Positions 1,186 to 29,200 of a stretch of DNA of 33,993 nt are shown here, one piece after another (the stretch's first letter is position 1; every line of letters begins with the position of its first letter). This DNA is from Clostridia bacterium. GTDB lineage: Bacteria > Bacillota > Peptococcia > Peptococcales > BICA1-8. The translations under genes were made by a program, and so were the position numbers. The notes beneath the pieces are model-generated. The model was not told the origin of the DNA. It was given only the letters and a program-made list of their open reading frames with translations, and searched no databases. The DNA lies in the NCBI GenBank assembly GCA_012800195.1, contig JAAZJU010000136.1:1-33993 (forward strand), written 5' to 3'.

Positions 1186-1232
1186 AAAAGACTTGGGCTT
1201 GGATACTAACATATTATATGAGGTGTGATAGC

Positions 1233-1646: not shown

Positions 1647-1687
1647 GTCTAAAAGTTGTATTTAGGGGAAGGATTTGAAAAACCAGT

Positions 1688-3206: not shown

Positions 3207-3224
3207 AAAGACAAAGAATAACAA

Positions 3225-3321
3225 GGTCACATGACTGGCGGAAGTGGAATTAACCACAGGGAGTGTGACTGGGATATTGCCGACCGCCTGGGCTCTTATA
3301 TGTGTCCAGGTGGTTTTTTTT
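3225..3321 (+). ncRNA. ZTP riboswitch (pfl motif) with expression platform
   Basis: Conserved GACTGGCG...CCGACCGCCTGGGC. P1 is GGTCACA/TGTGACT, P2 is GTGG/CCAC (3244-3247/3254-3257), the pseudoknot is GGCG (3237-3240) with CGCC (3285-3288). A terminator overlaps the 3' part, and pflB lies downstream. Confidence 0.9.
3283..3321 (+). terminator. Intrinsic terminator of the ZTP riboswitch
   Basis: ACCGCCTGGG (3283-3292) pairs with TCCAGGTGGT (3305-3314), followed by T8. It shares bases with the pseudoknot strand. Confidence 0.85.
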
Positions 3322-3356
3322 CTAGTAATTTAAATTTCGTCAAAGGAGGTAAAGAT

Positions 3357-5579
3357 ATGTTTGTACAATGGGACGGATTTAAAAAGGGAAAGTGGGATAA
3401 GGAAATTAATGTAAGAGATTTTATTCAAAAGAATTACACTCTTTATGATGGTAATGAAGATTTTCTAGAAGATATTTCGCCAAAAACTAAAAAAGTATGG
3501 GAAAAGTGCCAAGAATTACTTCTAGAAGAACTAGAAAAAGGTGTCTTAGATATTGAGACGGAGAGAGTTTCTGGGATTGATAATTTTGAGCCAGGTTATA
3601 TTGATCAAGAAAATGAGGTCATTGTGGGTCTCCAGACAGATAAACCCCTTAAGAGAATAATTAATCCCTTTGGCGGCATTAGAATGGCACAAGAGTCTGT
3701 AGCAGCTTACGGGTATTCAATGAATAAACATCTGGAAGATATTTTTACCAAGTACAGAAAAACTCATAATCAAGGGGTTTTTGATGCCTATACAAAGGAA
3801 ATTAGGACTTTGCGTTCTGCGGGTGTTATAACTGGACTTCCCGATGCTTACGGTAGAGGAAGAATTATTGGGGATTATAGAAGAGTAGCCCTTTATGGAA
3901 TTGATTTTTTAATAGAAGATAAAAAAGCTTCCCTCAAAGAATTAAAAGGCCCCTTTAGTGAAGAAATAATTCGTCTAAGAGAAGAGGTTAGCGAACAAAT
4001 TAGAGCTTTACGAGCTATGAAAAATATGGCCTCGAGATACGGTGTAGATATTTCTAAGCCCGCTAAAAACGCCCAGGAAGCTGTACAATTTTTATATATG
4101 GGTTACTTAGCAGCAATTAAAGAAAATAATGGTGCGGCTATGTCCTTGGGGAGAAATACTGTCTTTCTAGATATTTTTATTGAACGGGACTTACAACGAG
4201 GGATTTTAACAGAAGTAGAAGCCCAAGAGCTTATTGACCAATTTGTTATCAAGCTTAGAATTGCGAGACATTTAAGAACCCCTGAATATAATGAACTTTT
4301 TGCTGGGGATCCCACCTGGGTTACCGAGTCTATTGGTGGAATAGGCTTAGATGGGCGGCCTTTAGTTACTAAAACTGCCTTTAGGTTTCTACATACATTA
4401 ATTAACTTAGGCCCTGCTGCTGAACCGAATATGACCGTCCTCTGGTCTGACAAGCTACCAGAGAATTTTAAAAAATATTGTGCTAAGTTATCCATCCTGA
4501 CTGATTCCTTACAATACGAGAACGATGATATTATGCGTCCTACTTATGGTGATGATTATGGAATAGCTTGCTGTGTTTCGGCTATGACTATCGGTAAACA
4601 AATGCAGTATTTCGGAGCTAGGTGCAATCTAGCTAAATCCTTGCTTTATGCCATTAACGGTGGGGTTGATGAGGTAATAGGAGAATTAATTGTCCCTGAT
4701 ATTCCAGTAATGGAGGATGAAGTTTTAGAATTTGAAAAGGTGAAAGAAAACTATATTAAAGTAATAGATTATGTGGCTGAGCAATATGTTAACGCCATGA
4801 ACATTATCCATTATATGCACGATAAATACGCCTATGAGGCAGGACAAATGGCCCTACATGATACTTGGGTAGAACGATTAACTGCTTTTGGGGTAGCGGG
4901 TTTATCAGTTGTAGCAGATTCCTTGAGTGCCATAAAATACGCTAAGGTAAAACCTATTAGAGAAAATGGAATAGCAGTGGACTTTATTGTTGAAGGAGAT
5001 TTCCCTAAGTACGGTAACGATGACGATAGAGTGGATAACATTGCATTAGAGATAGTAAATAAATTTAGTACCTCTTTAAAGAAGCATAAACTGTACCGGG
5101 ATGCCATCCATACCTTATCGGTACTAACTATCACTTCCAATGTAGTTTATGGTAAAAAAACTGGAACAACTCCCGATGGCAGAAAGGCTGGGGAAGCCTT
5201 TGCTCCTGGAGCCAATCCTATGCATGGCAGGGATGAAAGTGGTGCTTTAGCCTCTTTGAATTCAGTGGCTAAAATACCTTATTGTGATGTTTGTCAAGAT
5301 GGCATTTCTAATACCTTTACTATTGTGCCTGAGGCATTAGGAAATGACCAAGCTGATAGAATAAATAATTTAGTAGATATCTTGGATGGCTATTTTACTC
5401 AAGGTGCACATCATCTTAATGTTAATGTACTTAATAAAGAAACCTTGCTTGATGCTATGGAAAATCCCAGTAAATATCCTACTTTAACTATTAGGGTTTC
5501 TGGCTATGCTGTTAATTTCAATCGTCTAACTAAAGAACAACAGCTAGAAGTAATCAACAGAACCTTCCATAAATACTAA
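3357..5579 (+). CDS. pflB: Pyruvate formate-lyase (glycyl radical enzyme)
   Basis: Active-site ACCVS, glycyl-radical motif RVSGYAV, C-terminal HKY. The real start is MFVQWDGF at 3357 after SD AAAGGAGG; the ORF-track start at 3231 lies inside the riboswitch. Confidence 0.95.
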
Positions 5580-6300: not shown

Positions 6301-6329
6301 AGCATTTATTTGCTCTCATTGTCCTTTTT
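6289..6329. terminator. Shared (bidirectional) terminator between pflA and the convergent regulator gene
   Basis: AAAGGACAAT-AGAGC-loop-GCTCT-C-ATTGTCCTTTTT, a two-part stem with a T-run on the plus strand. Confidence 0.75.
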
Positions 6330-7978
6330 CATTTGAGATCCTTACCAGCCTCTTTAAGCATACTTATATATAAAAGCAATTCTTCTCTAGAACTAACATT
6401 TAGTTTAGTATATATCCTCTTTGTATGGGTTTTAATAGTATTAATACTTAGGCATAAAATTCCCGCGATTTCCTTGGCAGTATATTGTTGAACATAGAGG
6501 TCAAAGACCGAGCGTTCCGCTGGGGAAAGATTCTTAATATTTCTAGCAAATTCATTAAGAGCGGCAGAGGGGGTTTCCTGCTCTGTTTTTTTATGAATTT
6601 CTTCGCTTTGGCTAGCTAGGTATTCAATTAATTCATTTATCTCAAGAATTCCAGTTTTGGGAGTTTCACTTAAATCATTGGATTTAATGATATCCAACCC
6701 AGATGTTATTGGCTTAATGTAGCGCTTACTTAAAAAAAAGGAAAGCAATATTCCTAAAAGCATTAATAAAGTAAACATAAAGGCTAAGCGTAAAGTGGAA
6801 CTAACCAATGTATCCTTGATGTCTTCCTCTGGAACCATGATAGCTAAAGACCATTTCTGGTCGGCAAATGCAGAATCTTTAGGATATAGCTCAAGTGGCA
6901 CATGGAAGCCAAGAAAAGCCTCATTTTTTCCTCCTTCATATGAATAAAAGGAATTGCGTCTTTCCTCTATATTGAGTATTGGACTTAGAGTATTTTTTTT
7001 AAATGAATAACCACCAGAGAACATAGCCCCTGAAGTAAAAATGGTATCCTTTGAAACTGGTGCCAGCACGCAAAAAATGCGACTATAGGTACTATAATCA
7101 GGCATATAGGACAATTTAAACAACATAGCACTAACCTCAAAGCCACATACCCCGAGAATATTTCCTTGAGAATCAATAAGTGGAGCAGAACATAGCATTA
7201 TTTCTTCACTGGTCCCAGGTAGGGTAAAGGCTGGAGTCCAAGAATACAGCCTTGAAAGGGGCAAGGACTCTTTATGGGCATATTCCATAGGTAGATGAAA
7301 ATAGGGAGCTTTACTTATATCAAACTCCATATCCCATTGGGCATGCAGGGGAAGGGAGTTATTACGAGCGATATTAGGAAACCCCCGTAATAAAACAATG
7401 GTGGGGGAAGATGAATTTAAAATATTTGGTTCCATATTTTTAATAAATAGTCCGGCTCGAGAAGTTTCAGATTTCTCTAATTTATTATTAATTGTTGCAT
7501 CCAGAATAATAAAAACGCCACTGCTTTTGGATTTTTCTAAGGAAAATAAAGCACGGTCAAATTGATCTGTAAGGATTTCCTCTAAAATTTCAGGATTATT
7601 TTGTAATCCAGAAAGGTCAATTTCCTTTTCCAGGAGCATTTTCTCAATACTTGTTGCTAAGTTTCTAGAAAAATCTACGGTTTGCACGGAAAGTTGACCA
7701 TAGTATTGAGAAATATGCTGAGAGATATGATTTAATTCATTTTGCAGCAATTTTTTATTTTCATCCACTCCGGCTGTAAATGTACCTGTCAATAATAAAA
7801 TCACTATTATTCCCAGGACCATAGTAAAAACAAGGAGAATTAAAAACAAGAAAAGTCTTAGGCCCATTGATAAACCCAATGTGCCTGTTTCTTTATATTC
7901 TTGTTTTATTTGCTCTAGTTTATTAACAACTAGCACTTCCTCACCTACAATCAAACCAGATAGCGACCTATAAGTCAC
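6329..7978 (-). CDS. Membrane-anchored LuxR-type transcriptional regulator with an extracellular dCache-like sensor
   Basis: N-terminal TM (LFLFLILLVFTMVLGIIVILLL), extracellular region of about 300 aa, second TM (FMFTLLMLLGILLSFFLS), C-terminal LuxR HTH (LSPAERSVFDLYVQQYTAKEIAGILCLSINTIKTHTKRIYTKLNVSSREELL). The exact start is uncertain (GTG at 7978 or further in). Confidence 0.85.
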   Translation of the reverse strand: MTYRSLSGLIVGEEVLVVNKLEQIKQEYKETGTLGLSMGLRLFLFLILLVFTMVLGIIVILLLTGTFTAGVDENKKLLQNELNHISQHISQYYGQLSVQTVDFSRNLATSIEKMLLEKEIDLSGLQNNPEILEEILTDQFDRALFSLEKSKSSGVFIILDATINNKLEKSETSRAGLFIKNMEPNILNSSSPTIVLLRGFPNIARNNSLPLHAQWDMEFDISKAPYFHLPMEYAHKESLPLSRLYSWTPAFTLPGTSEEIMLCSAPLIDSQGNILGVCGFEVSAMLFKLSYMPDYSTYSRIFCVLAPVSKDTIFTSGAMFSGGYSFKKNTLSPILNIEERRNSFYSYEGGKNEAFLGFHVPLELYPKDSAFADQKWSLAIMVPEEDIKDTLVSSTLRLAFMFTLLMLLGILLSFFLSKRYIKPITSGLDIIKSNDLSETPKTGILEINELIEYLASQSEEIHKKTEQETPSAALNEFARNIKNLSPAERSVFDLYVQQYTAKEIAGILCLSINTIKTHTKRIYTKLNVSSREELLLYISMLKEAGKDLK

Positions 7979-9356
7979 CTAATATTTTTTGTGCCTCTTT
8001 AGCTGTGTAACCTACCCATTTATTTGCTCCTTTACTATCTGTGTCTTTTAAGTGATTTAAATATTCTTTCCTTGAATCAGAAGCTATTTTCCTAATCTTA
8101 TTTTCAAAGTCTTTCTCTAATTTATCAATATTCTCAAAGGTGGGAGGAATATAAAAGTCGTATTCCCTTTGCATTTCAATGGCAGTACTTAAAAGCTTTT
8201 TGATGTTTTTATCGGATATATTATTAATCTCTTGGCTCATCATTTCTCCATAGGCTTCCTCCGTTACAGGTAGATATCCTGTTGAGGAAATAAAATAAAG
8301 GTTTTGCTGGGGCTGGGTAAACCATTTAAGAAAGATAGCAGCAGCATATTCCTTTTCTTTAGAGGATTTAGTAACACACATTCCACTTCCTCTTTGGATT
8401 GCAATTTTTTCTCCTTCTTGGAAGGTGGGATAAGGTAAAATGCCATATTCCACTGGTTCAGTTGTATTATCACTATATGTTACAGCAGGAGGAAAAAAAA
8501 CCACCCCTGCCGTGGAGCTCGTGGTACAAATAATATCCCCAGTTTTAGCTAAGTCTGAGGCATAACCGTCAAAAATTGCTATATGACCTTTAACCATTGG
8601 TTCATAAAAAAGATCCCATATCTTAGAAAAAACAGGGGAAGCCAAATCCAAAGTTTCATCTTTTACAAATTCATCCCCTAATTGTCTGTATCCTACTTGG
8701 GTAAGGTTAAAAAGGGAATCAGGTATATAAAAAGCCTTCCCATCATTTTGAATATGAGGAGTTTGATTATCAGACCATTGATAATATAGTTCTGCAGCCT
8801 TAATGATTCCTTCGAAGGTTTTTAAATCGTCAAAACTAATGTCCGTATCTTTGGCAAACCTATTAAACAATGTGTTATTGACAAATAGTACCTCAGTGGA
8901 CTTGGCTGTAGGAAAGACATAAAGTTTGTTATCGAATATTCCTTCTTCTATAAAACGGGGGACATATTTAGCGAGTTCCTCTTCTGTAAACTGTTCGTTT
9001 AAATCCACAAGCAAATCTTTTTCAGCTAGGATAAGGGCAGTTTTAGGATAGGCTGTAGTTATATCGGGAAGTTCGGGAGCACCGGGATCATTGTTGGCAG
9101 CCATAGTTAATTTTTCATGGAGGGTAGCAGAACCAGATATGGAAGTAACATTGACAATAATGCCCTTTTCAGCCCCAATAGTGCCGTTAAATTCATCTAT
9201 CATTTCATCCATTGTGTATCTCATTTGACCGCCATAATTATGCCACATTGTTAGGGTGACGGGATTTTTGGGATCCAAAAGAGTATCCCCTTGGCAAGCG
9301 GACAAGAGACTGAATATTAAGAAAAAGGTGAATAAGAATAGAACCTTTCTTTTCAT
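7968..9356 (-). CDS. ABC-type extracellular solute-binding lipoprotein (family 1)
   Basis: Lipobox LLSACQ, then LTMWHNYGGQMRYTMDEMIDEFN; SD GGAGG upstream. No permease or ATPase gene lies adjacent. Confidence 0.85.
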   Translation of the reverse strand: MKRKVLFLFTFFLIFSLLSACQGDTLLDPKNPVTLTMWHNYGGQMRYTMDEMIDEFNGTIGAEKGIIVNVTSISGSATLHEKLTMAANNDPGAPELPDITTAYPKTALILAEKDLLVDLNEQFTEEELAKYVPRFIEEGIFDNKLYVFPTAKSTEVLFVNNTLFNRFAKDTDISFDDLKTFEGIIKAAELYYQWSDNQTPHIQNDGKAFYIPDSLFNLTQVGYRQLGDEFVKDETLDLASPVFSKIWDLFYEPMVKGHIAIFDGYASDLAKTGDIICTTSSTAGVVFFPPAVTYSDNTTEPVEYGILPYPTFQEGEKIAIQRGSGMCVTKSSKEKEYAAAIFLKWFTQPQQNLYFISSTGYLPVTEEAYGEMMSQEINNISDKNIKKLLSTAIEMQREYDFYIPPTFENIDKLEKDFENKIRKIASDSRKEYLNHLKDTDSKGANKWVGYTAKEAQKILGDL

Positions 9357-9418
9357 TATTTCCTCCAGGACTTAAATATCTAAAACAATTATAACATTTC
9401 AATATTCAAAATTCTACC

Positions 9419-9472
9419 AATCACCCCAAAATCACCCCTGTCCGGTCCTTCCTTATCACCCTGTAGGTGATT
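9419..9472. promoter_or_regulatory. Cluster of ATCACC repeats upstream of the solute-binding protein gene
   Basis: ATCACC at 9420, 9431 and 9455, and inverted GGTGAT at 9466-9471. The last two form ATCACCCTGTAGGTGAT. Confidence 0.45.
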
Positions 9473-9573
9473 ACGAGAGATATTTTTTTGAATATTCTTT
9501 AAATGAGGAACTATAAAAGGGGGGATTTATAAAATCTTCATTTAGAAAGTGTTGAAGATAGGAGTTGAAAACC

Positions 9574-9903
9574 ATGCTTCATGCTTTTACAAAAAAGTGG
9601 ACTGATGAATCTACATCCAAAGAATTTACTTTTACCTTTTATTGCGATTTGTGTGGCAAACCATGGAAAAGCTTTCCCATTCCCTTTAGTGAAGGGGAAG
9701 GGAAAAAATCCTTGTTTAATTTTCTTAGCTTAAAAAATGCCCAGTGGAAAAGCGAATATAAAGATGCCTTTGAAAGGGCAAATAGAGAAGCAATGTTTCA
9801 TTTTAACCGCTGCTTAAATTGTAAAAAGTGGGTTTGTGATGATGATTTCCACGAAGATGAAAACAGTTGCACTCAATGCTTAGAAGAACAGAAAGAAAAA
9901 TAA
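9574..9903 (+). CDS. Zinc-ribbon-like cysteine-rich protein
   Basis: CDLCGKPW, CLNCKKWVC and CTQC pairs. ATG at 9574 with upstream AGGAG. Confidence 0.7.
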   Translation: MLHAFTKKWTDESTSKEFTFTFYCDLCGKPWKSFPIPFSEGEGKKSLFNFLSLKNAQWKSEYKDAFERANREAMFHFNRCLNCKKWVCDDDFHEDENSCTQCLEEQKEK

Positions 9904-9927
9904 TGGAAAAACTAGGGAGGAATTTAC

Positions 9928-10314
9928 ATGTCAGAGATAAACAATAATTTACACAACCAAGAAGTTTCAAATAAACAGGTGACAAATAACGAAATTATAG
10001 AGGAAACCTTTGATCCCGCCGATATTGAAAAAAACAAGACTATGGCAGGATTAGCTTATCTAATTTTCTTCTTACCATTAATCGTATGCCCAGATTCAAA
10101 GTATGGCAAGTTCCATGCTAATCAAGGGTTATTACTTCTGATTACTTCAATTGTAGGGACTGTGGTTTTAAGCATAATTCCTATAATTGGTTGGGTTTTA
10201 TTACTATTTTATCCCCTTGTGATTTTAGTACTTGGGATTATGGGTTTAGTTAATGGTTTTAGTGGCAAAGCAAAGCCTCTACCTATTATCGGTAAATACA
10301 CCATTATTAAATAA
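9928..10314 (+). CDS. DUF4870-like multi-spanning membrane protein
   Basis: MAGLAYLIFFLPLIV...YGKFHANQGLLLLI...LGIMGLVNGFSGKAKPLPIIG pattern; SD GGGAGG. Confidence 0.7.
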   Translation: MSEINNNLHNQEVSNKQVTNNEIIEETFDPADIEKNKTMAGLAYLIFFLPLIVCPDSKYGKFHANQGLLLLITSIVGTVVLSIIPIIGWVLLLFYPLVILVLGIMGLVNGFSGKAKPLPIIGKYTIIK

Positions 10315-10347
10315 AGATTTCATTCCAATTTTAAAGGAGGAAAAATA

Positions 10348-10845
10348 ATGAAAAAAATTCTTATTGTACTTCTTAGTATTTTGTTGGTTTTCAGTCTAAC
10401 AAGTTGTGGAGTAAAGGAGAAAGTTGAACAAAAGGTTGGGGAAAAAATAACTGAGAAAGTTATAGAAGGGGTAGCCGGAGATAAGGATACCAAGGTTGAT
10501 ATTAAAGATGGCACAATAACCTTCAAAAGTGAAGATGGTGAAGTTACCTTTGGTGGCACTGAGTGGCCGGATATAGATATCATTCCAGAGTTTAATGAAG
10601 GTAATATTGTTGCGGTAATGCATGACGGTAAAAACTCTGCGATGATTGTTCTAGAAGAGGTTGATAAAGACGATTTTGAAGATTATTGGGAAGAGATTAA
10701 CGGGGAGTTTTCTGAAAATGTTTATGAAATAAACACAGGGGATATCGTTTCTTTTACAGGGGAAAATAGTGAAAAATTTATAGTTCAGTTAACTTATGAA
10801 ATTGCAAACAAGACCTTAACCATTGTTACCAGTGCCAATGAATGA
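10348..10845 (+). CDS. Hypothetical lipoprotein
   Basis: Signal peptide with lipobox SLTSCG; SD AAAGGAGG. Confidence 0.75.
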   Translation: MKKILIVLLSILLVFSLTSCGVKEKVEQKVGEKITEKVIEGVAGDKDTKVDIKDGTITFKSEDGEVTFGGTEWPDIDIIPEFNEGNIVAVMHDGKNSAMIVLEEVDKDDFEDYWEEINGEFSENVYEINTGDIVSFTGENSEKFIVQLTYEIANKTLTIVTSANE

Positions 10846-10878
10846 TTTGGAAAATTATAAAGAAATAGGAGGGTATCT

Positions 10879-11685
10879 ATGGGCAAAGCACATGAAATAG
10901 ACTATACAATATATGGCGATGATATGCAATTTGTAGAAATTGGCTTAGATCCAGGGGAAACTATTGTGGCCGAAGCTGGAGCTATGATGTATATGGATAG
11001 TAGCATTGTCTCAGATACTGTCTTTGGCGATGGTTCAGAACGAGACGCTGGAAAAGGTCTGATGGATAAAATGCTGGGAGCTGGAAAGAGAGTAATTACT
11101 GGGGAAAGTCTTTTTATGACAACTTTTACAAATAAGGGACAAGGAAAGAAAGTTGTATCTTTTGGTGCTCCCTATCCAGGTAAAATTATTCCATTAGATC
11201 TTAAAGATTATAATAACCAAATTATTTGTCAAAGAGATGCATTTCTTTGTGCTGCTAAAGGTATAGCTATTGAAATTGCTTTTCAGAAAAGAATAGGAGT
11301 GGGTTTCTTTGGAGGAGAAGGTTTTATTATGCAGCGCCTAATAGGCGATGGAATGGCCTTTATTCATGCTGGGGGAACCATTATTAAAAAGAATTTAGAG
11401 GCAGGAGAAGTAATAAAGTTAGATACAGGTTGTCTTGTAGCTATGACTACAGGTATAGATTATGATGTGCAATTTGCAAGTAATGTGCGCAGTGCTATTT
11501 TTGGTGGGGAGGGTTTATTTTTAGCGACCTTAAAGGGACCTGGACAGGTTTGGCTACAATCCTTACCTTTTAGTAGGTTAGCTAATCGCGTATATGCTGC
11601 AAGTAGCAAAGGAGACAACAAAAGCAAGGGAGAAGGAAGTGTTTTGAAAGGTATAGGCCTTAAAGGCTTATTAGGTGACGATTAG
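10879..11685 (+). CDS. TIGR00266 / AIM24 family protein
   Basis: IGLDPGETIVAEAGAMMYMDSSI...GESLFMTTFTN...GLFLATLKGPGQVWLQSLPFSRLANR is characteristic of the family. Confidence 0.9.
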   Translation: MGKAHEIDYTIYGDDMQFVEIGLDPGETIVAEAGAMMYMDSSIVSDTVFGDGSERDAGKGLMDKMLGAGKRVITGESLFMTTFTNKGQGKKVVSFGAPYPGKIIPLDLKDYNNQIICQRDAFLCAAKGIAIEIAFQKRIGVGFFGGEGFIMQRLIGDGMAFIHAGGTIIKKNLEAGEVIKLDTGCLVAMTTGIDYDVQFASNVRSAIFGGEGLFLATLKGPGQVWLQSLPFSRLANRVYAASSKGDNKSKGEGSVLKGIGLKGLLGDD

Positions 11686-11717
11686 ATTATAAATATTAAC
11701 AAAAGGATGTGAATAGG

Positions 11718-12020
11718 ATGGCTTTTTTTAATGAGATAGGTAAAAAAATTGGTTCAGCTGCCGGGGCTACTGCTTCGAAAGCTAAGGAACTTGCGGAGGT
11801 AACCAAGCTCAATTCTCAAATTTCGGATCAAGAGAAACAGATAGATAAGCTTTACATTGAAATAGGTAAACAAATCTATGAGCTAGATAAAGATAATGCT
11901 GAGAGCCCAGTTAAAGAATTGTGTGAGAAGATAACTGAGGCCCAACAGACTATTGCTACTTTAAAAGAAAAGATCAGTGATATAAAAAATGCTAAGGAAC
12001 AAGAGGAAGAACAACAATAA
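11718..12020 (+). CDS. Coiled-coil hypothetical protein
   Basis: Heptad-rich LNSQISDQEKQIDKLYIEIGKQIYELDKD...AQQTIATLKEKISDIKNAKEQEEEQQ. Start likely 11718 rather than 11709. Confidence 0.7.
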   Translation: MAFFNEIGKKIGSAAGATASKAKELAEVTKLNSQISDQEKQIDKLYIEIGKQIYELDKDNAESPVKELCEKITEAQQTIATLKEKISDIKNAKEQEEEQQ

Positions 12021-12061
12021 AATTTTTAAGGGTATGTGCTTTGTGAAAGGAGTATAGATCT

Positions 12062-15000
12062 ATGAAAAAGATTATCTCAATATTGTTAATATTGGCACTG
12101 CTCTTTAGCTTATCGGGTTGTGGAAGGAAAACAGGTGAAAGTAATTCTAGCTTGCCTGTTTCCTCAGCTAAACCTCCAAAAACAGGTCCAGTTGGTATCT
12201 GGGATATCCCCATTCCCGAAATCAATCCTTTAGGTTCTCAAGATTTATATATTTCCACAGATTATGAGGAAGGAGAAAGACATGATCTAAAGTATATCGA
12301 CAATTTCGCTGAGGTTACTAAAGTAATTGATGGTGAAATGTGGACCCTGGAAGTGGAAGACCCCTCGGGTATTCCCCTAATCTTTCTCAAGGATTATGCA
12401 GAAAAATTGGGTGCTAATATTTTCTCAAACCAATATGGTGATCGGTTAACCTTTAATTATAAAAAAGACGAGAATAGCCTGTGGTGGGGGGATGCTCGTC
12501 AAACAGAAAGTGGTTATACTCTTCATGTTGTAAAAGAACTATTTATTCCCGTGGGAAAAGAAGTAAAATTTACTCCCGCCAGTCTGGGTGAAGATGTTGA
12601 AAGTATTACCTTTATGACCAATAGTGAAGGCAAGAAATTTCAATCGGCAAGGATTATGCTCCCTGATGGTGATCTTCAATTACGAATCACATCAGAGTAT
12701 TCATCGGCTATGCTCAAGCGGAGCCTTGACTATAGAAAGGAACTTTATTCTTATAAAACTAACACTTTTGTTCTTGATGACCTTCCTCAGGGCCAGGATA
12801 CTTTAAAATGGACTTTTACCTGGGAAGAACCTCCTACCGAGTTTTCTATTTTAATTGAGGAATTGGGGGAAATTCCTGAAGTCAAGCTAGGTGATGAATT
12901 AGGAGCCTTAAAAGTTTGTGGTGTTCCCTTTGGGGATGTAGTTGTTGAACCACCTAATGAGGTTGATTTTCAATATATCGATGGTTTTTCCCTAGAGGGT
13001 GATATTACTCCTGAGGGAGATACCCTTTTCTGGCTCCCGGCAGGTCTTTGGAATGTAGTTCTCTTGGCCGAGGGGGTAGGTTTATACGACAGTAAAGTTA
13101 GAATGATTCCAGTAAATGCTGGAGAAACTACAGTGCTTACTCTTCCCACTTCCCTAAAGAGTGCTTATGCCAACTTAAACAGTTCATTTGCTGAACCTGG
13201 AAACTATACCGGTGGGATTGAATTTGTGGAAGCCAAGGATATGGGTAATACCGCTTCAATTTCTATGCTGGTCCATGATCCTTTACAGCGGGATATTTTT
13301 CCTACTAAAGAGAATACACAAATCATTGAAGGGGGTAAACCAGTAAAAATTACCGAGATTACTCGGCAGGTGGCACCTCCTAGTGTTGTCTTGGTTCTAG
13401 ATTCCTCAGGGTCCATGGGTAAACAGATGCCAGCTACCACTGCTGCGGCAAAAGAATTTATTCAAGGTCTCCCCGATAAAACTTTTATTAAAGTAATTGA
13501 TTTTGACTCTCAAGTAAAAGTATTAAATGGTGAAACTAAGGAGAATGTTCTTAAAAATCTTTCAAAGATAACTGCAGGAGGCTCCACAAAACTCTTTGAT
13601 GCTACCCTTCAGGGTCTTGAATTACTTGATGGTAAAACTCGACCTGCTCTAGTTGTCTTTGCAGACGGTGCAGATTCCAGCATTGATGGCCAAGGAGAAG
13701 GAAGTTATCGTTCTCAAGAGGAAGTGGTAGAGGCACTAAAAGAGGCTAATATTCCAGCATATACCATTGGATTTGGAGACAAACCCGATGAAAAAGCTTT
13801 AAGGGAGTTTTCAGCGGCCTCTGGTGGAGAATATTATAGTGCCAAGGATGAAAAGGCATTAGCTAATGTTTTTGCCGCCATCGGCAGTAAATTTGGAAAC
13901 TCTTTCGTCATGACCTATGAGCGGCCTAAAGAAGCTGGGCTTTCCGACACACCGGTAATATCTATGATTGTGGATGCTTCAGGCTCTATGGATATCGACC
14001 CTGCTGAAGAAGAAGGCTGTGGTTATCGCATGGATAAAACCAAGGCAATTTTCCATGATTTTATCATGAAGCTGCCAAAAAATGCTCTAATGCAAATGAC
14101 TAGCTTTCAGACTGGCCCCGTGGGTGGCTTGATTATCCGTCAACAGCAGATAACTACTTCTGACAAAATGCAGATTCTACAGGGTTTAGGAGAATTAGAT
14201 GCTTATGGTGGGACACCAATTTTAGAAGCCATCACCATCGGATACGAAAATCTAAGGTCGGTCCCCTCCAATAAAAAGGTTATTGTCTATCTCACCGATG
14301 CTGCCTTAGAGGTGGATGAAGAAGAACAGGAAGCATTTGAATGGATATTAGGAGAAATTAAGAAGGAGAATATTACCGTCCTGTGGGCAGGAATAGGTGT
14401 AGAGGATAAAAAAGAGGTTTTTGCTAAAGCTGCAGAACTTTCCGGTGGGCGCTATGTGGTAACCGAGGATGCAGGGGGATTACAGTCTACCCTGGAGGAA
14501 ATCTTAAACCTTATAAAACAAGATACTATTTCTCGGGAAATACCCCTTTCAGTAACTATTAATGACAAGAATGCCGCTGGGGAGGTGTTAAGTTATGCTG
14601 CCAACACTTCAGTTGTTTTTACAAAGCCGCCCAAATCAGGGGAAGTAATAGAGCCTGACACTGTAAAAATTGCTACCGGTTTACCCATGAAGCGTTACGG
14701 TCAGGATGTAGCTACTATGGTAACAGGTACAGGGGTCCCGGGCGTAGATACTATTCTCACTAAGCGTATTCCCTTTAGTGTTAAAGAAAGTAATAAAGCA
14801 GCAGAACTTACAGTTAAAGAGGCCTACTATTTCAGTAAATTTAAGGGACTGGAGCCTCCTAATCATAAACAGTTTATGGCCCTGGAATTGGAACTGAAAA
14901 ATGTTACCCAGGAAAAAATTCCTTACAATATACCAGGTTTTCAAAATCACTTTTATGTAAGTATCAATAATGAGGGAAGTTTTCCGGCATCTGAGGCTAC

Positions 15001-18000
15001 CTGGCTTACAGAAAACCCCTTAGCACCACCTGGTAATCCGGAAGTTAATGTTCCCGTTAAAGAAACATTAAAAGGAATGCTGGTATTTTTAGTCCCCGAT
15101 GAACCTGTAAAGCAAACTTCCTTACATTTTTACGATACTACCTATGGTCATATTAATGTTCCCTTAATGGGCAAAATGGATAAACAGTTTTTAGAGATCG
15201 AAAAATTACCCACAGGAGATTTGGCTAAAATTAGCGATGCATTTTCTATGAAAGTAACTGGTTCCAGTGTGGTGGACAAAATAGATCAATATCCGGCAGA
15301 GAAAGATGCTTCTTACAGAGTGGTAGAAGCAGAATTCGACTCCAAAGTCCAGGCTCTTCTGGATATTAATCCCCAAGAAAGACTTTGGTTAAAAGTGAAT
15401 ACTAACCAGGGTCCCTTATTAACCAAGATGAGTGATGCTACCCATGTGTTGCCTTTCGGTTTTGTTTCACCGGTGATGCTGGCTCCTGGCTCAGTCAATA
15501 AAGTTCGCTTAGCCTATGAGATTGCCAATGGCCTCAGTGGTACCCAAACGGAAATTTGGGGAGATCTCCAGAGTGGTAGTTTACAGGTTCCGGTAGTTAA
15601 GGGGAGTCCCTATGGTTCTACTGGTAGTGTTGCGACAGCCTCAATGGAGGGCTTAAAAGTTAAGGTTAACCAGTTAACCATCCTTGATGAATCCTTTGAA
15701 AATATGGCTGGTTGGATTGTAGCTGATGTAACCCTAACTGATGTAAAGGATGGTTTTGGGACCATAATTCCGGAAGATTGCTTCCAATTGGTGCGTGAAG
15801 ATTACCAGAATCAATATCAGGCGAATACCCCGAGGGTTACGGGCAAAATTGGGTTGGCTGATTTTGGCTCAGGGGAAAGCACGGAAGGCATTTTGGAACC
15901 TAATTATGCTACTACCAGGTTACTATATGGAATTAATAATGATTGGGCTGTTTTTGATGGGGCTGAACGAAGAGGCATTATCCTCTTTTTTACGCCAAAA
16001 AAAGGCTATAAATGGTCCCTTAAATCACCCTTTTTCACGGATTTGAATGTTCCTGTTGGTACAGAAACCTATCAGAGTCCGGAACTTTTAGTCAATAAAA
16101 TTGAGGCGCCAATAATTGATCGGGAATTTGAAACTCAACTGGCGGAAATGGTACGGAAAGAAATTCAAAGGTATAACAGCATCAAAGGAACAAAAGGCAA
16201 TGCAGGTTTTATCCAGACCGTTGACTTTGACCAGAATGACGGTAAAAATAATATTCCTATGCCTACTATTGTAACCTCCGGAGCCCAAAAGATTGAAGAG
16301 GTAAAAACAATAGCCGATTTTACCAAGACCATGGCTCCTCTCAAATGGATCCCCGCTCATCGGGATAATAAGTGGTATTATTCCTATTCTCCCGAAGCTG
16401 TATTGACCCAGGGCTGGGGAACAGAATGGGATTTAGCTAATGTTGCCATGAGGTTATTGGCTAAAACTGGTTGCACACCAAAATTAAGATCTATGGCCTT
16501 TACTGAAAATGGCAGGGTGAAACTTTTGGAATTATCTAATGTTGAAGAAATTCCTAATGACTTTATACCCGGAATTTCCTACCTTGATGAACAAGGTAAT
16601 TCGAAGCTGTTTGTAATTCCCTTTATGAAGGATATTAAAGAACTTGAGGGTCTAGTATATTTCCCTGCTTCCCAGTATGAAGTCAGCGAATTAAATTCGG
16701 AAAATGCAACTATAAGTGTATCGTTAAAAGTAGAGCCTGGTGAAGATGAAGGCTCAGCGGCCGGCACTATGGGTGATATAGCTGATGTTTTAGGTGGGGG
16801 AGATGGAGAAGGACTCAAAGGCTATGATTATGTAGAAATGCTATCTAAGGAAATATCCCTTGCTGATTTAAGTCATGATCCTATTGAAGTGGGTTATCCT
16901 GAGGCTGGGAACGGAAAAGGTAAACAGTATATGGTAGCTATGAGTACACCCCAAGGGGTGACTGGGAGCTCAGTTGCCATTGATAGCGGGCAAAATAAGA
17001 TACTAGGTGTGAGAATTGATGTGAAGCTACCGAATGGTACCTATACTCATGAGAGTACTCTGGTGGAAGGTGAGACTCCAGATCGAGTTTATCATACCTT
17101 AGCAATCAATTTGCCTGATTTACCAGAGGCTTCCGCTAAAGTATTAGAGGAAGCTACCAATAAAGAATATAAGGCTGCCAATAATCCCAACTCTCTCTCT
17201 GTTCTTAAGTGGTATAGCCGTAATATCATTAATCGTTTTATAACTAATCAGACTATTTTTGATCAAGAAATCAGTGAGGATTTGAAGTTGATTTTAGGTC
17301 GTACGGATAAAGCGCGGTGCATGGTTTTAACCTCTCGTATGGATCCTAAGAATGATAAAATGTGGACCAGTATGGATTTATTACAGGCTGTTAGTCAATG
17401 CCACAATGGAGATGAGGATACCCAAGCAGCCTATAATATCATTGCCGGAATGTTTGTTTCCTCTTTGGAAGGTAGAGCATTGACAGGTAAGGATACAACC
17501 AATTTCTTAGATTTATGGATCAATGCTCCTAAGGGTACTAGCCTGGTCTTTATTCCACCTGATGAGGAAGATTCTGAGGGACGTTTGCAAATCCTAGAGG
17601 AGATGATAAAAGAAGGTAACTACCCAGACCGGCTTATTGAGACAGTTTTCAATACTTCAAAGGCAATTTTTGTTCCCGATAAGCCCACAGATGTAGATGG
17701 AATAAAACGATGGGCCTGGTTAGAAATAGACCCAGAATCCTATGAAACAATTGCGGTCTTTGATACTGGGGAACATGGTTCTTTTGCATCCTATCTTATT
17801 ACAAAGCAAGCTCAAGATATTGGTCAGAATGCCAGTAAATATGCTTTGGGTGCCTTTATTGGTGTTGATGTTTCCATTTGGTCAGTATGCAGTGCTGCTT
17901 TGAAACACGGCGATTATAAAGACATTCTTAATGAAGCCATTATGACTGCCCAAGCAATCGGAAGAGTATTGGATGATTTTATGAAAGGTGTCGATGATAT

Positions 18001-18172
18001 AAAGAATTTAGAAATAACCCTTGGGAGTAAATCTGCAGGTCCTCTTAAAGGAGAGGCTAAATTATCCCTTAAAGGTTTTAAATGGGGTGTAAAGCCAAAT
18101 TATCCTGGCTTTAAGGAAGGATTTGAAGATGCGATGGCAGTGTATTTCACCGCAGCTAAAAAGGCTAAATAG
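12062..18172 (+). CDS. Giant (2036 aa) lipoprotein with two von Willebrand factor A domains
   Basis: Lipobox SLSGCG. MIDAS motifs DSSGS (13400-13414) and DASGS (13973-13987), each followed by a VWA-like region. SD AAAGGAG. Confidence 0.9.
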   Translation: MKKIISILLILALLFSLSGCGRKTGESNSSLPVSSAKPPKTGPVGIWDIPIPEINPLGSQDLYISTDYEEGERHDLKYIDNFAEVTKVIDGEMWTLEVEDPSGIPLIFLKDYAEKLGANIFSNQYGDRLTFNYKKDENSLWWGDARQTESGYTLHVVKELFIPVGKEVKFTPASLGEDVESITFMTNSEGKKFQSARIMLPDGDLQLRITSEYSSAMLKRSLDYRKELYSYKTNTFVLDDLPQGQDTLKWTFTWEEPPTEFSILIEELGEIPEVKLGDELGALKVCGVPFGDVVVEPPNEVDFQYIDGFSLEGDITPEGDTLFWLPAGLWNVVLLAEGVGLYDSKVRMIPVNAGETTVLTLPTSLKSAYANLNSSFAEPGNYTGGIEFVEAKDMGNTASISMLVHDPLQRDIFPTKENTQIIEGGKPVKITEITRQVAPPSVVLVLDSSGSMGKQMPATTAAAKEFIQGLPDKTFIKVIDFDSQVKVLNGETKENVLKNLSKITAGGSTKLFDATLQGLELLDGKTRPALVVFADGADSSIDGQGEGSYRSQEEVVEALKEANIPAYTIGFGDKPDEKALREFSAASGGEYYSAKDEKALANVFAAIGSKFGNSFVMTYERPKEAGLSDTPVISMIVDASGSMDIDPAEEEGCGYRMDKTKAIFHDFIMKLPKNALMQMTSFQTGPVGGLIIRQQQITTSDKMQILQGLGELDAYGGTPILEAITIGYENLRSVPSNKKVIVYLTDAALEVDEEEQEAFEWILGEIKKENITVLWAGIGVEDKKEVFAKAAELSGGRYVVTEDAGGLQSTLEEILNLIKQDTISREIPLSVTINDKNAAGEVLSYAANTSVVFTKPPKSGEVIEPDTVKIATGLPMKRYGQDVATMVTGTGVPGVDTILTKRIPFSVKESNKAAELTVKEAYYFSKFKGLEPPNHKQFMALELELKNVTQEKIPYNIPGFQNHFYVSINNEGSFPASEATWLTENPLAPPGNPEVNVPVKETLKGMLVFLVPDEPVKQTSLHFYDTTYGHINVPLMGKMDKQFLEIEKLPTGDLAKISDAFSMKVTGSSVVDKIDQYPAEKDASYRVVEAEFDSKVQALLDINPQERLWLKVNTNQGPLLTKMSDATHVLPFGFVSPVMLAPGSVNKVRLAYEIANGLSGTQTEIWGDLQSGSLQVPVVKGSPYGSTGSVATASMEGLKVKVNQLTILDESFENMAGWIVADVTLTDVKDGFGTIIPEDCFQLVREDYQNQYQANTPRVTGKIGLADFGSGESTEGILEPNYATTRLLYGINNDWAVFDGAERRGIILFFTPKKGYKWSLKSPFFTDLNVPVGTETYQSPELLVNKIEAPIIDREFETQLAEMVRKEIQRYNSIKGTKGNAGFIQTVDFDQNDGKNNIPMPTIVTSGAQKIEEVKTIADFTKTMAPLKWIPAHRDNKWYYSYSPEAVLTQGWGTEWDLANVAMRLLAKTGCTPKLRSMAFTENGRVKLLELSNVEEIPNDFIPGISYLDEQGNSKLFVIPFMKDIKELEGLVYFPASQYEVSELNSENATISVSLKVEPGEDEGSAAGTMGDIADVLGGGDGEGLKGYDYVEMLSKEISLADLSHDPIEVGYPEAGNGKGKQYMVAMSTPQGVTGSSVAIDSGQNKILGVRIDVKLPNGTYTHESTLVEGETPDRVYHTLAINLPDLPEASAKVLEEATNKEYKAANNPNSLSVLKWYSRNIINRFITNQTIFDQEISEDLKLILGRTDKARCMVLTSRMDPKNDKMWTSMDLLQAVSQCHNGDEDTQAAYNIIAGMFVSSLEGRALTGKDTTNFLDLWINAPKGTSLVFIPPDEEDSEGRLQILEEMIKEGNYPDRLIETVFNTSKAIFVPDKPTDVDGIKRWAWLEIDPESYETIAVFDTGEHGSFASYLITKQAQDIGQNASKYALGAFIGVDVSIWSVCSAALKHGDYKDILNEAIMTAQAIGRVLDDFMKGVDDIKNLEITLGSKSAGPLKGEAKLSLKGFKWGVKPNYPGFKEGFEDAMAVYFTAAKKAK

Positions 18173-18236
18173 AAAGTGGCGGGGTTAACATTATAGGAGG
18201 CTAATTCAAAATATTAATATATTGGAGGTATATATA

Positions 18237-18812
18237 ATGAAAAAAACTTCTTTATTTCTAATATTGCTTATTGTGATAGCTTTCATGGTAACGGCTTGTG
18301 GTGGAGGTAAAGCACCTGTTAACCAAGAGCCTGCCAAATCATCAGATAAAGTTGAAGAGAAAGGTAATCAGGAAGAACCTAAACCCCAAGTTTTTCAAGA
18401 AATGACTTCTTCAATAACAACCATAGATGGTTGGGAGAAAGATGAAGATGTTCCTAGTAATGTAACTTTTTATAAAAAAGACGGTTTTTCAGTAATGCTT
18501 AGCCGAGATCGTATGCCAGAAGAAGCCAATACTCCTGAAAAATTCTTAGAATATGTTCAAGAAACATATAGGGATAGCTTTAGTAATGTAGAATTCCACG
18601 ACACAGCAGAAATTGGTGTATCTGATCCTGATAAACATTTCCTTGTCTATACTTATAAAATAATGAATATGGAACTAAAGGGTTGGAACACCTATATCTT
18701 CCATGATAAATATGCTTACACACTAGGTTGTGGAGGGTCTTCAAAGGATTTCCCAACAGTAGAAGAAGACTTTAGAACATTTATTGAATCCTTTGAACTG
18801 GTAGAAAAATAA
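18237..18812 (+). CDS. Hypothetical lipoprotein (possibly a PsbP/DcrB-like fold)
   Basis: MKKTSLFLILLIVIAFMVTACGGG lipobox. ATG at 18237 after TTGGAGG; the ORF-track start at 18222 is over-extended. Confidence 0.75.
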   Translation: MKKTSLFLILLIVIAFMVTACGGGKAPVNQEPAKSSDKVEEKGNQEEPKPQVFQEMTSSITTIDGWEKDEDVPSNVTFYKKDGFSVMLSRDRMPEEANTPEKFLEYVQETYRDSFSNVEFHDTAEIGVSDPDKHFLVYTYKIMNMELKGWNTYIFHDKYAYTLGCGGSSKDFPTVEEDFRTFIESFELVEK

Positions 18813-18884
18813 GAGTAAGAAAGATTAAGGATGAAGATTAAGATTGAAGAAAAGTTTTTTTCAGGGAAAGGAAGGAAAATTCTT

Positions 18885-19966
18885 ATGAAAAAGAATTATT
18901 TAATCTTGGCGTTATTACTTTGTATAGCCTTATTGATAACAGCCTGTGGTGGTTCTTCCAATCAAGGGCAGGCTGAAAAAAGTGTTGACCCGAAGGAAAA
19001 GGTCGAGACCGAGAAACCGGTTAAGGCGGAAAATTCGACTTCTAAATCTTCAAAAATTCAAACAATTGGCGAGTTTTCGGAGCTCTGGGATAACCTTTAT
19101 AAAGAAAATGAGAAGGTTTTAAATGAATATGAAGGGATGCCTATAATGGAACTTGTTACACCTAGCACTTGTTTCATTAGCGGGGTTCAATATGATTTAT
19201 TAAATATAGATAATAAGGACGGTCGTTTCGAAGGAGAATTAATGTTTGCCGGGTATCAAGGGTTTGTGGAGAAGAATGGTCCTATTTTGACCTTCGGTTA
19301 TGATGATGTATTGGAACAAGACGGTTTTGGTTTTTCTTCTAAGGCCGGTGACAGGAAGGTGGAAAATAGGCACCTGTGATTTAGAGAAGGTATATTTTTT
19401 TGAAGAATCTTATACCGAAAGAGAGGGTGAAATATTTACCCGCAAAGTCAGCGAATTTAGACAGGAAAAGGATGGAAGCATGAGCTGTTTTGTGTTAAGC
19501 GGAGGGAATTTTGATAGTAGGGGTAATGTATCCTCCCATAGTGATTATCTTTTTGTCCGTAATGGTAAAAATCAATATGATTTTGTGATAGCTATAGGTC
19601 AGGAGGGACCTGACTTTAAAGTTATTTCCCTTAAAGATTATGGGGATTTGACCAAAGAAAAGGCTATTGAACTTTTTGAAGCCGCCGGTTATGTAGTTGA
19701 AAAAAGCGGTGGCATTGTAGACGGCAAACTAACCCTAGATTAAGCTTGGCAAGCCCCCAGACCAGAACTTTACCACTAAGAAGCCTTTTAAAGAAGTGGC
19801 AGAATTCTATAAAGAAATTGTTAATGCTATGGACAACGCCAATATTTCTGATGGAGATTATGAGTTCTTCGCAACAGCTAGTAAAGGCGAAAATAGCGTA
19901 GAGATTCAAATTATGGATACTGGCGACAATCAAGCAGTTGTATTAAATAATATTTACCTCGAATAA
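18885..19966 (+). pseudogene. Lipoprotein gene split over three frames by two apparent 1-nt insertions
   Basis: Frame 1 ends ..GDRKVENRHL*. Frame 2 continues (VE)IGTCDLEKVYFFEESYTE...GKLTLD*. Frame 3 continues (D)KLGKPPDQNFTTKKPFKEVAEFYKEIVNAMDNANISDGDYEFFATASKGENSVEIQIMDTGDNQAVVLNNIYLE* to 19966. Confidence 0.7.
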
Positions 19967-19977
19967 GGTTAAGAATT

Positions 19978-20022
19978 CACCCTAAGGCAAAGGAGTAATC
20001 CTAAGCCCTAGGGTGTTTTTTT
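19978..20022 (+). terminator. Intrinsic terminator at the end of the envelope/lipoprotein cluster
   Basis: CACCCTA (19978-19984) pairs with TAGGGTG (20009-20015), followed by T7. Confidence 0.75.
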
Positions 20023-20115
20023 CTTATAAGGAGCTATGCTATAATACCTTCAAGCAACGTGAATTGCCCCTTTAGGGGACAAGAGAGGATAGCCTGGGCT
20101 ATAGGAGTGAATTGT

Positions 20116-20250
20116 ATGAAAAAGAAACTGTTGATCTTAATAATGGTACTTTCTCTAAGCTTGTCTGCCTGTGGTTCTAAAGAGACAGAAGAAAAGGAGC
20201 AGGTTATTCCTCTTTTTAAATTGGACAAGATAGAAAATATTAATATTTAG
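20116..20250 (+). CDS. Very short putative lipoprotein (44 aa), possibly truncated
   Basis: MKKKLLILIMVLSLSLSACGSKETEEKEQVIPLFKLDKIENINI; SD AGGAG. Ends soon after the lipobox. Confidence 0.5.
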   Translation: MKKKLLILIMVLSLSLSACGSKETEEKEQVIPLFKLDKIENINI

Positions 20251-26178: not shown

Positions 26179-26259
26179 TGGAACTTTACTTTTATTTTCT
26201 CGTCTTAAATATAAGGATAGGTGTATGTTATTTCCAAAAAAACAAAAGAGGGGATTGTT

Positions 26260-29200
26260 ATGAATAGCAAAAAACATCTGATTATTGCTTTAGTCTTGAT
26301 TGTTTTAAGTGGGATTATCTACTTAGGCCTTAATCAAGGCTCTGAAAGTGTTCTAGCTTCGGAAGTAAATATGTTGCCAACTAAGTATGATACTGGGGGA
26401 GTCGAGCTAGATAGTAGTTTTGTCTTTCAAACCGCTGATGAGCTGGATCCCAAGGCTATCGCTGAAAATATAAGTGTTGATCCAGTTATACCTTTTAAAG
26501 TGGAAAAGGGTGAAAAGGGTAATTCCCATGAAGTAATTCTTATACCTCAAGAACCCCTTGAACCCCAAAAGGTTTATAAATTCACCTTAACCACTACAGG
26601 AGATGAATCCTTGAAGTGGGCTTTTCAGACTAAAGGAGATTTTAAAGTTGTTTCCACATTACCTAGAGATAAAGGAACAGGTGTACCCACAGACACAGGA
26701 ATAGAGATTAATTTTAGTCATTTAAACTTTGATAATCTAGATCTTTACTTCTCTATTAATCCCCAAGTTCAAGGTAAATTTGAAATACATAAAAAAACTG
26801 CCGTGTTTATACCCCAAAAGCTAGAACCAGCCACTGTTTACACTGTAACCATTAAAAAGGGGTTACCCCTAGCTGGAAGTAGCCAAGTATTAGAGGAAGA
26901 TTATATTTTCCAATTCGAAACCAGAGAAGAAGATAAACAAAGTTCTCATTATATTGATATTTACAAACAGGATCATGAATTTACAACTCAAGAGGCTCCC
27001 TTTTTTCAAATAGGGTATTTTAGTTATCAGCAAAAGGAATCAATAGAGGCTAAGGTAACAATATATAGCTATAAGAATGCTCAAGAATATATTAAAGCTC
27101 TTCAAGAAAGAGAAAAAACACCTTTTTGGGCTTATCACAGTAGGGTTAATTATAGAGAAAATACCCAGGGACTTTCTGAAGTAGCTTCCTTTAGTACTCC
27201 CATAGAAGGTAGTCAAAATCTAAGCTTTATTCAATTCCCTGAGGCTATTCCTGCTGGGTACTATCTTGCAGAAATAACTTTAGATGATACTGTAAGACAG
27301 CTTTGGTTCCAAGTCACTGATTTGGGTATCTATGCTGCACTAGGTGAAAATAAAAATCTATATTGGGTTCATGATCTCTTAAGTGGCCTTCCCGTAGCTG
27401 GAGCAGATATTAAAGGTAATGGGGAGACTGCCAAGACCAATGATAATGGGTTAGGTGAGTTGCCTAGTACTGGGGACTTTGCTCTAGGGGCCTATGCCGT
27501 AATCAGTAAAGGTAACCAAGAAGGAGTGGCTGCTATCGTTCCCAGATATGTGGACTTTGAGTGGCAGGATAAATACAATTTCCAAAGTTCTTTCTGGCGG
27601 TACCTTTACCTAGACAGAACCTTATATAAACCTGATGATACAGTGCATTTTTGGGGCATCTTAAAGCCTAGAGTGACCAACCAGGAAATCCCTCAGAAAG
27701 TTACTGTAGCCTTAACTAAAGATGGCAGTCAGGGGACCGCAATATTAAGTAAAGAAATTCAAGTATCTGATTATAACTTTACCGATAGCCTAGATTTACC
27801 CAATCTTTTACCAGGCTATTATTATCTTGAGGTTCAAGTGGATAATCAGACCGTAATCAGCCAATTTTTTGATGTGGAGAACTATAGTAAACCAGTGTAT
27901 CAAATTGAGGCTACTCCTCACCAAAGGGCTATCTTTGCTGGGGAAAAGGTAGATTTTAAAGTTAAAACTAGCTTTTTTGAAGGAACAGCTGCGGCTAATA
28001 TTCCTCTAAAGTACTATATTTATAATGACAATGGTACGATCACCACTAATAGCCAAGGGGAAGCTATTATTAGCTATAGGCCTACTCAAGAGGGAGAGAG
28101 TTATAGCTATATTGATCATAGATATCTATACTTAACAACTAATCAGCCTGAAAGTGGAGAAATAGCTGGAGATGCTCTAGTTATGGTCCTTAATAATGAT
28201 GTGGCTATTGAAACTCAAGGTAAGGTTGTAGAAAATTACGGGCAGATAGAACTAAACCTCAAAAAATTAACCTTAGATAAGGTTAATAGGGGAGAAATTG
28301 ATTCTTGGGAAAAAGATGCCTTTACTCAAGGACCGGCTGCCAATCGCGAAGTAAAGGTTAATCTTTATGAAGAGGTTTGGGAGAAAATTGAGACAGGACA
28401 ATATTATGATTTTATCAATAAAAAAGTTATGCCTCGTTATGAATATCGTTATAAGAAAGTTCCACTTGGTGAGGATCAAATAACCACCGATGGAGAAGGA
28501 AGGGCAAATTATAATTTCCCCGTAGATAAAGACAAATCATATTTAGTAGAGTTTTCCACTCTTGATTTCCGGGGAAATACTGCTTTGGCCCAACAAAGGC
28601 TTCAAGGCTCAGGGTTTTACTTAGAATATGACTATCCCTGGTATCAGCTGGAACACGAAAAGGAAAATAGAAAATATAGCATAGATGAAACTGTGCAGGT
28701 AAGTTTTAAGAAGAATACAACCTTAATGCCTGAGCGGGAAAAAGGCTTTTTATTCTTAACCTGCCGTAGGGGTATTCTAGAGGAACAGATTCAAAATACA
28801 GGGATCTTTAAAACTACCTTCACTACTGAAATGCTCCCTAATTTCTGGATTAAAGGCGTATATTTCGATGGTCGTTATTATTATCAAACCCCAGAGGAAA
28901 TCGTTCTTTTTGAAGAGCAGGATAAAGCCCTAGAAATTGAGATTAGTACTGATAAAGAAAGTTATCGACCTGGAGAAAAGGTCCAGGTTAATCTGGCCAT
29001 AAAAGACCAAAAGGGCAAACCAGTTAAAGCCACAGTAAATCTAAATTTAGTGGATGAGGCCCTGTATGCCATTCATAATCAATATGTGGATCTTTTGTAT
29101 TCATTATATGGGCACCCCAATACAGTGCTTTCAGGCATCAAAGGAAGCTTAATTACTCATCAGCCTCCTGATTCCCGATTCGGAGGAGCTGAAGGAGGAG

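Follow-up and report, generated by a model that had tools for sequence, protein, structure and literature searches.

What does a tightly packed run of envelope genes of 'function unknown' do together, and what switches it on? The question is raised by a contig of a Clostridia bacterium (Peptococcales, BICA1-8; GenBank assembly GCA_012800195.1, contig JAAZJU010000136.1), all 33,993 nucleotides of which are called the window here. A sequence-only reading had marked out an operon at 9574-20022 and proposed an envelope machine built around its AIM24-family protein. Directly upstream, outside that interval, we found a divergent pair of genes for a solute-binding protein (SBP) and a membrane regulator with a LuxR-type helix-turn-helix (HTH), together with an operator and a promoter facing the operon. 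This upstream half (6329-9500) appears to be functionally important. With a probability of roughly 0.7, the operon is part of a ligand-switched surface regulon run by the SBP and the regulator, which has two transmembrane (TM) segments.

The predicted sensor pair

The regulator is predicted to be a one-component membrane protein (Table 1). Its hydropathy gives two TM segments, at residues 44-62 and 398-416, not the 10-12 of the multi-TM LuxR family of Coriobacteriia; they enclose an outside sensor of ~335 amino acids (aa), and a cytosolic C-terminal LuxR/GerE HTH occupies residues 483-536 (PF00196, 47.1 bits against a cut-off of 23.5). Domain search found no two-component kinase or receiver domain in 6329-7978. 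PADLOC defence models gave only HTH cross-matches, with no link to anti-phage defence.

The SBP and regulator genes share 11 bp. The solved structures closest to the SBP are, by name, binding proteins for sugars and glycerol-3-phosphate, which suggests that the ligand is likely a sugar or a glycerol-phosphate-like compound. No ABC permease or ATPase gene was recognised directly beside the SBP gene in the window or at most of the loci checked; behind the regulator of one locus (L271) lies a pair of ABC-type genes.

Full-length regulators were found by profile search in 9 of 170 Bacillota genomes, with the SBP gene adjoining in 8 of the 9; in the ninth (G188) each of the two is close to the end of a contig. 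The pair stands beside the cluster or parts of it in the window genome (G000 in our numbering, a draft of 2.01 Mb in 256 contigs) and in G026, G027, G023, G022, G366 and G385, which span at least two classes. All four genomes with a full-length LipC, a lipoprotein of the operon (4 of 399), also have the regulator. Five genomes, all of one family, have a further lipoprotein of ~200 aa next to the regulator and converging on it; in one of the five, open reading frame (ORF) calling split the gene, and in another it lies beyond the examined stretch.

The operator and its promoter

At 12 loci a conserved element precedes the SBP gene: TAATCACC-N5-GGTGATTA, followed after ~10-15 bp by two direct GGGGTGATT repeats that are 11 or 12 bp apart. 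The window's palindrome and its direct repeats were each seen in 0 of 100 shuffles. A model of this operator, built from the SBP-upstream copies only, was run on the collected loci and on 45 whole genomes; these genomes were chosen, not random, and the E-values are rough, coming from a shortened calibration. The whole window genome contains one strong site (E 2.2e-12; next best 0.018). In regulator-positive genomes the best site scored between ~1e-4 and 1e-15, except in G022 (0.003), and none of the 20 genomes negative for the regulator at E 1e-25 had a site below E 0.0015. Strong sites were confined to genomes with the regulator and to G304, whose sites are accompanied by other LuxR-HTH proteins. 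The recognition helix of the HTH (LSINTIKTH) is near-invariant in orthologues from operator-bearing genomes and diverges in G022, whose operator is weak; both facts agree with a link between regulator and operator, and we infer that the one binds the other.

The hexamer lying 21 bp past the operon-facing GGTGAT half-site matches TATAAT at 4.0 of 6 positions on average, against 3.0 for the next offset (19 sites, a five-member family being represented by one); 5000 shuffles never rose above 3.11 (p < 1/5000). Since the -10-like box comes at this fixed distance, the half-site seems to stand in place of a -35 box, as would be expected for an activator-dependent promoter.

The proposed regulon

Operator sites that had not been used to build the model (held-out sites, Table 1) face further surface genes. 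Because the operator precedes separate sub-operons in other genomes, the unit is best regarded as a regulon with exchangeable effectors, namely giant proteins with VWA or SLH domains, with or without AIM24. That one operator controls a cell-surface regulon is strongly supported by these sequence comparisons. At G304:C58 the gene directly behind the operator (L310:701-1228) fuses half a ZnR domain, that of the zinc-ribbon protein encoded first in the operon, to a LuxR HTH.

A mechanism can be proposed. The lipid-anchored SBP would capture a small molecule outside the cell, most likely sugar or glycerol-phosphate-like, and the loaded SBP would engage the outside domain of the two-TM regulator. 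The regulator's cytosolic HTH would then bind the operator of GGGTGATT half-sites, whose inner arm would replace the -35 box, and the regulator would recruit RNA polymerase to the -10 box 21 bp away. This would switch on the divergent operon (ZnR, the DUF4870-like gene, LipA, AIM24, the coiled-coil gene CC, the VWA giant, LipB and LipC), and the products might remodel the cell surface, probably for adhesion or matrix binding dependent on the metal-ion-dependent adhesion site (MIDAS).

Table 1. Window features, followed by held-out operators and related operons of other genomes
Feature	Position or locus	Strand	Basis or genes concerned
Membrane one-component regulator	6329-7978	-	PF00196; hydropathy; 7-sequence alignment
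Solute-binding lipoprotein, SBP_bac_8	7968-9356	-	PF13416, 106.4 bits (cut-off 27); pair conserved
Predicted operator	9419-9474	-	Palindrome ATCACC-N5-GGTGAT, 9455-9471; direct repeats GGGTGATTTTGGGGTGAT, 9420-9437
-10-like box TATTCT	9493-9498	+	21 bp past GGTGAT; oriented towards the operon
Zinc-ribbon protein ZnR, 109 aa	9574-9903	+	C/H positions conserved in 7 orthologues
Small multi-TM protein, DUF4870-like, 128 aa	9928-10314	+	Orthologues; DUF4870 sub-threshold in orthologues
Lipoprotein LipA, 165 aa	10348-10845	+	Lipobox LTSC; orthologues
AIM24/TIGR00266 protein, 268 aa	10879-11685	+	PF01987 and TIGR00266 above cut-offs; solved relatives 1yox, 1pg6
Coiled-coil protein CC, 100 aa	11718-12020	+	Orthologue in G023 has an additional zinc ribbon
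Giant double-VWA lipoprotein, 2036 aa	12062-18172	+	PF00092, 1e-19; MIDAS motifs; models and PDB search
Lipoprotein LipB, 191 aa	18237-18812	+	Lipobox; related lipoprotein elsewhere
Lipoprotein LipC, frameshifted	18885-19743	+	Two separate profile matches, E 5.6e-68 and 6.8e-55
Intrinsic terminator, end of cluster	19978-20022	+	Fold energy against shuffles
Held-out operator	G023:C6		Faces CC-ZnR2-VWA
Held-out operator	G023:C58		Faces AIM24-LipC-VWA and, back to back, TM/CC
Held-out operator	G366:C16		Faces VWA; regulator on a different contig
Held-out operator	G366:C36		Faces DUF4870-like gene
Held-out operator	G023:C6:45479		Faces DUF4870-LipA-lipoprotein
Held-out operator	G385:C41		Faces DUF4870-LipA-1902-aa SLH surface protein
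Held-out operator	G385:C77		Faces AraC-type regulator, then lipoprotein, then 1499-aa secreted protein
Held-out operator	G304:C58		Faces ZnR/LuxR-HTH fusion, then SLH protein
Operon	G026		ZnR-TM-LipA-zinc ribbon-ZnR2-CC-VWA-LipC; no AIM24 within operon
Operon	G027 (JAAXZE010000069.1, Clostridia metagenome-assembled genome)		ZnR-TM-LipA-AIM24-CC-LipC; no VWA
Gene cluster	G023:C58		ZnR; CC and TM, each carrying zinc ribbons, on opposite strand; then AIM24-LipC-VWA
Gene cluster	G023:C6		CC-ZnR2-VWA

The operon and its products

The sequence-only reading described six co-directional genes, from ZnR to the VWA giant, with gaps below about 45 bp and no terminator-like hairpin between them. Its coordinates are right: the gaps are 24, 33, 33, 32 and 41 bp, a Shine-Dalgarno-like sequence precedes every start, and a consensus scan found no terminator-like site on the + strand inside the operon. 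The strong terminator that it placed at the end of the cluster was likewise borne out (dG -25.5 kcal/mol, z -5.8, with 0 of 200 shuffles equally stable; a 7-bp closing stem and U7). The two further lipoprotein genes, LipB and LipC, are present after 64 and 72 bp, although, relative to intact orthologues of 288, 323 and 302 aa, LipC is interrupted by a frameshift of one base near 19366, in the stretch 19300-19379, which may reflect either decay or an assembly error. Between LipC and the terminator is a leftover coding-like reading frame (19744-19965), and directly past the terminator a very short lipoprotein-like ORF (20059-20250; signal peptide and ~25 residues) is perhaps a remnant.

Among the family assignments made earlier, AIM24 holds (PF01987, E 4.5e-71, 239 bits against 25.7; TIGR00266, 112.4 bits against 96.6), as does VWA. 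DUF4870 stays sub-threshold: the window protein has no Pfam match at E 0.01, and its orthologues score 23.7 and 19.1 bits against PF09685 (cut-off 25).

The giant lipoprotein carries the lipobox LSGC and two VWA domains, at about residues 441-611 and 632-820, flanked by Ig-like/beta domains. Both VWA domains have the full MIDAS pattern DxSxS...T...D (D447, S449, S451, T509, D535 and D638, S640, S642, T718, D746), invariant in four homologues, of which the other three are 34-68% identical to the window protein. The model of the N-terminal half has pLDDT 77; among solved structures the mussel byssus protein PTMP1 comes closest and inter-alpha-inhibitor heavy chain 1 second, both of them tandem-VWA proteins, and because of these relatives it is reasonable to infer that the lipoprotein may bind surfaces. 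For the C-terminal half the model is poor (pLDDT 66, pTM 0.42); short stretches of it match proteins of Listeria, C. difficile and B. anthracis that are uncharacterised and include at least one beta sandwich. A transglutaminase-like C-terminal part, a conjecture based on the stretches TQGWGTEWDLA and RWAWLEID, was rejected: there is neither a catalytic Cys nor a Pfam match, and the low-confidence model gave no such match either.

Neighborhoods in other genomes

Neighborhood searches spanned the class and the phylum, with some loci ending at contig edges or holding masked stretches; genes outside the window were called with a simple ORF script. The part list of the operon recurs, reshuffled, in other genera and classes (Table 1).

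Neither AIM24, which is mostly unlinked, nor ZnR could serve as anchor of the cluster. A widespread longer form of ZnR marks a different trio, recurrent in many Bacillota, in which it accompanies a 110-aa double zinc ribbon and a protein of ~400-490 aa with PH/GRAM-like repeats, read by eye and with no Pfam match (L183:9155-11427, L188:8118-10483, L192:7076-9596 and loci like them). In Sinanaerobacter chloroacetimidivorans (L022:9857-19359) an AIM24 with an N-terminal zinc ribbon is followed by two secreted proteins of 495 and 2136 aa, SLH-type by eye, and a LipA relative, so that an SLH giant replaces the VWA giant. One domain, C-terminal in the 495-aa protein, is found again in a lipoprotein (L307:4602-5291) downstream of the G385:C77 operator.

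Alternative explanations

It seems quite unlikely that a single physical machine, centred on AIM24 and serving envelope stress or surface assembly, comprises the lipoproteins together with the AIM24, zinc-ribbon and coiled-coil proteins. The compactness of the operon would suit such a machine, as would the adjacency of AIM24 and VWA in two families of the class and the role of yeast Aim24 as an inner-membrane organiser (PMC3975624), yet any other operon protein was found at only 3 of 80 named AIM24 loci, the VWA operon of G026 does without AIM24, and the AIM24 operon of G027 does without VWA. The VWA family is uncommon, with 7 positive genomes among 399 at E 1e-20, and AIM24 is not clearly enriched in them: it is present in 2 of these 7, against 66 of 399 Bacillota genomes overall (E 1e-50). 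The joint, undescribed envelope system proposed by the sequence-only reading thus survives in its recurrent part list and shared operators and loses AIM24 as its centre, and the neighborhood check that it recommended gave a divided answer, with AIM24-VWA adjacency limited to two genomes. The envelope-stress role received no direct support, the likely trigger being an extracellular ligand acting through the SBP and the membrane LuxR regulator.

With its strong inverted repeat the element could also be an RNA leader hairpin, or it could be the site of a different global regulator, the SBP/LuxR pair being a bystander, as the two sites that face no recognised effector might suggest. We give this little credence, since the element is upstream of the constant-spacing -10 box and therefore outside that transcript, its strong sites keep to regulator genomes and to G304 with its own LuxR-HTH proteins, and it recurrently adjoins the SBP gene. 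A pair that represses the operon, or that senses wall damage products instead of a nutrient, is unlikely: an operator over the -35 region could work either way, but the lack of a recognisable -35 box would be typical of activation, and the SBP is closest to sugar-binding proteins. Gene order and content do differ between genomes, but chance clustering of unrelated envelope genes is hardly credible in view of the recurrent parts and the operators shared across classes, and the held-out sites disfavour it.

Several observations weigh against a ligand-switched surface regulon. No operator was seen in front of the SBP genes of G173 and G022, and the site of G188 is partial (model positions 3-33). 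Strong sites at G027:C56 and G173:C46 face no recognised effector, nor does the one at G304:C4, which faces another membrane LuxR protein. VWA homologues in G177, G206, G152 and G187 are without a convincing operator, as are most ZnR2 relatives, which accompany double-zinc-ribbon and PH-like genes; these families therefore also appear to work outside the regulon. The regulator cassette also occurs without these effectors beside it (f31 genomes and G053, which have both operator and regulator), the outside domain of the regulator has no convincing Pfam family (dCache_1, 16.7 bits against a cut-off of 45), and LipC is broken in the window genome itself. The G027:C56 operator (L303:470-526) lies near a contig end, directed away from a gene of the D-glutamate cyclase family, and the gene it targets was probably cut off by the contig edge.

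Other features of the window

A ZMP/ZTP riboswitch (3221-3300; Rfam, 60 bits) overlaps the start listed for a glycyl radical enzyme ORF (3231-5579), which therefore probably begins further downstream than listed; the enzyme is pyruvate-formate-lyase-like, and a radical-SAM activase-like gene comes next. At 1218-3163 an anti-sigma-type HATPase adjoins a PAS-PAS-SpoIIE phosphatase, likely as a partner-switching pair. At 26221-31092 is a 1623-aa bacterial alpha-2-macroglobulin-like protein (MG2, bait region and A2M domains), followed by a Memo-like gene.

Significance and comparison with known systems

Read as above, envelope genes of 'function unknown' become a regulon for which sensor, operator and promoter are all predicted, and the operator allows new members, unlinked genes included, to be found by DNA search alone. 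If the proposal is true, it would place bacterial AIM24, DUF4870-like, zinc-ribbon and giant VWA or SLH proteins in a regulatory context for the first time. Sensing through an SBP and one-component regulation at the membrane are each known separately. In the open-access literature searched we found no description of an SBP with a membrane LuxR protein and no kinase, or of its regulon, and nothing relevant on SBP-coupled membrane LuxR proteins or on AIM24 with VWA or a zinc ribbon. We consider it fairly probable that SBP lipoprotein, two-TM LuxR protein and GGGTGATT operator together represent an undescribed class of ligand sensing in Bacillota, controlling a modular surface regulon.

The AIM24 protein is a clear member of the TIGR00266/AIM24 family (1yox, 1pg6, yeast Aim24), and here would be one exchangeable element of the regulon. 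In LuxP-LuxQ, an SBP-coupled sensor kinase, the membrane sensor receives its ligand from a binding protein. The window pair would work likewise, except that its signal would pass straight to an HTH, as no kinase or receiver was found. MalT is a large cytosolic ATPase that binds GGATGA boxes. It resembles the regulator in its LuxR-type HTH and in repeated G-rich asymmetric half-sites, and the HTH is the sole shared part: against NCBIfam MalT only the HTH aligns (20.5 bits, cut-off 537), without the MalT architecture. ToxR/CadC-type membrane one-component regulators likewise combine an outside sensor and a cytosolic DNA-binding domain in one chain, but have one TM segment, an N-terminal OmpR-like HTH and no SBP partner. 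The transmembrane LuxR regulators DadR, HcdR and CadR of Eggerthella lenta have 10-12 TM helices and metabolic enzymes as their targets (PMC9734109). The window regulator is like them in being a predicted membrane one-component activator with a C-terminal LuxR HTH and neighboring target genes, and differs from them in its two TM helices, its ~335-aa outside domain and its SBP partner.

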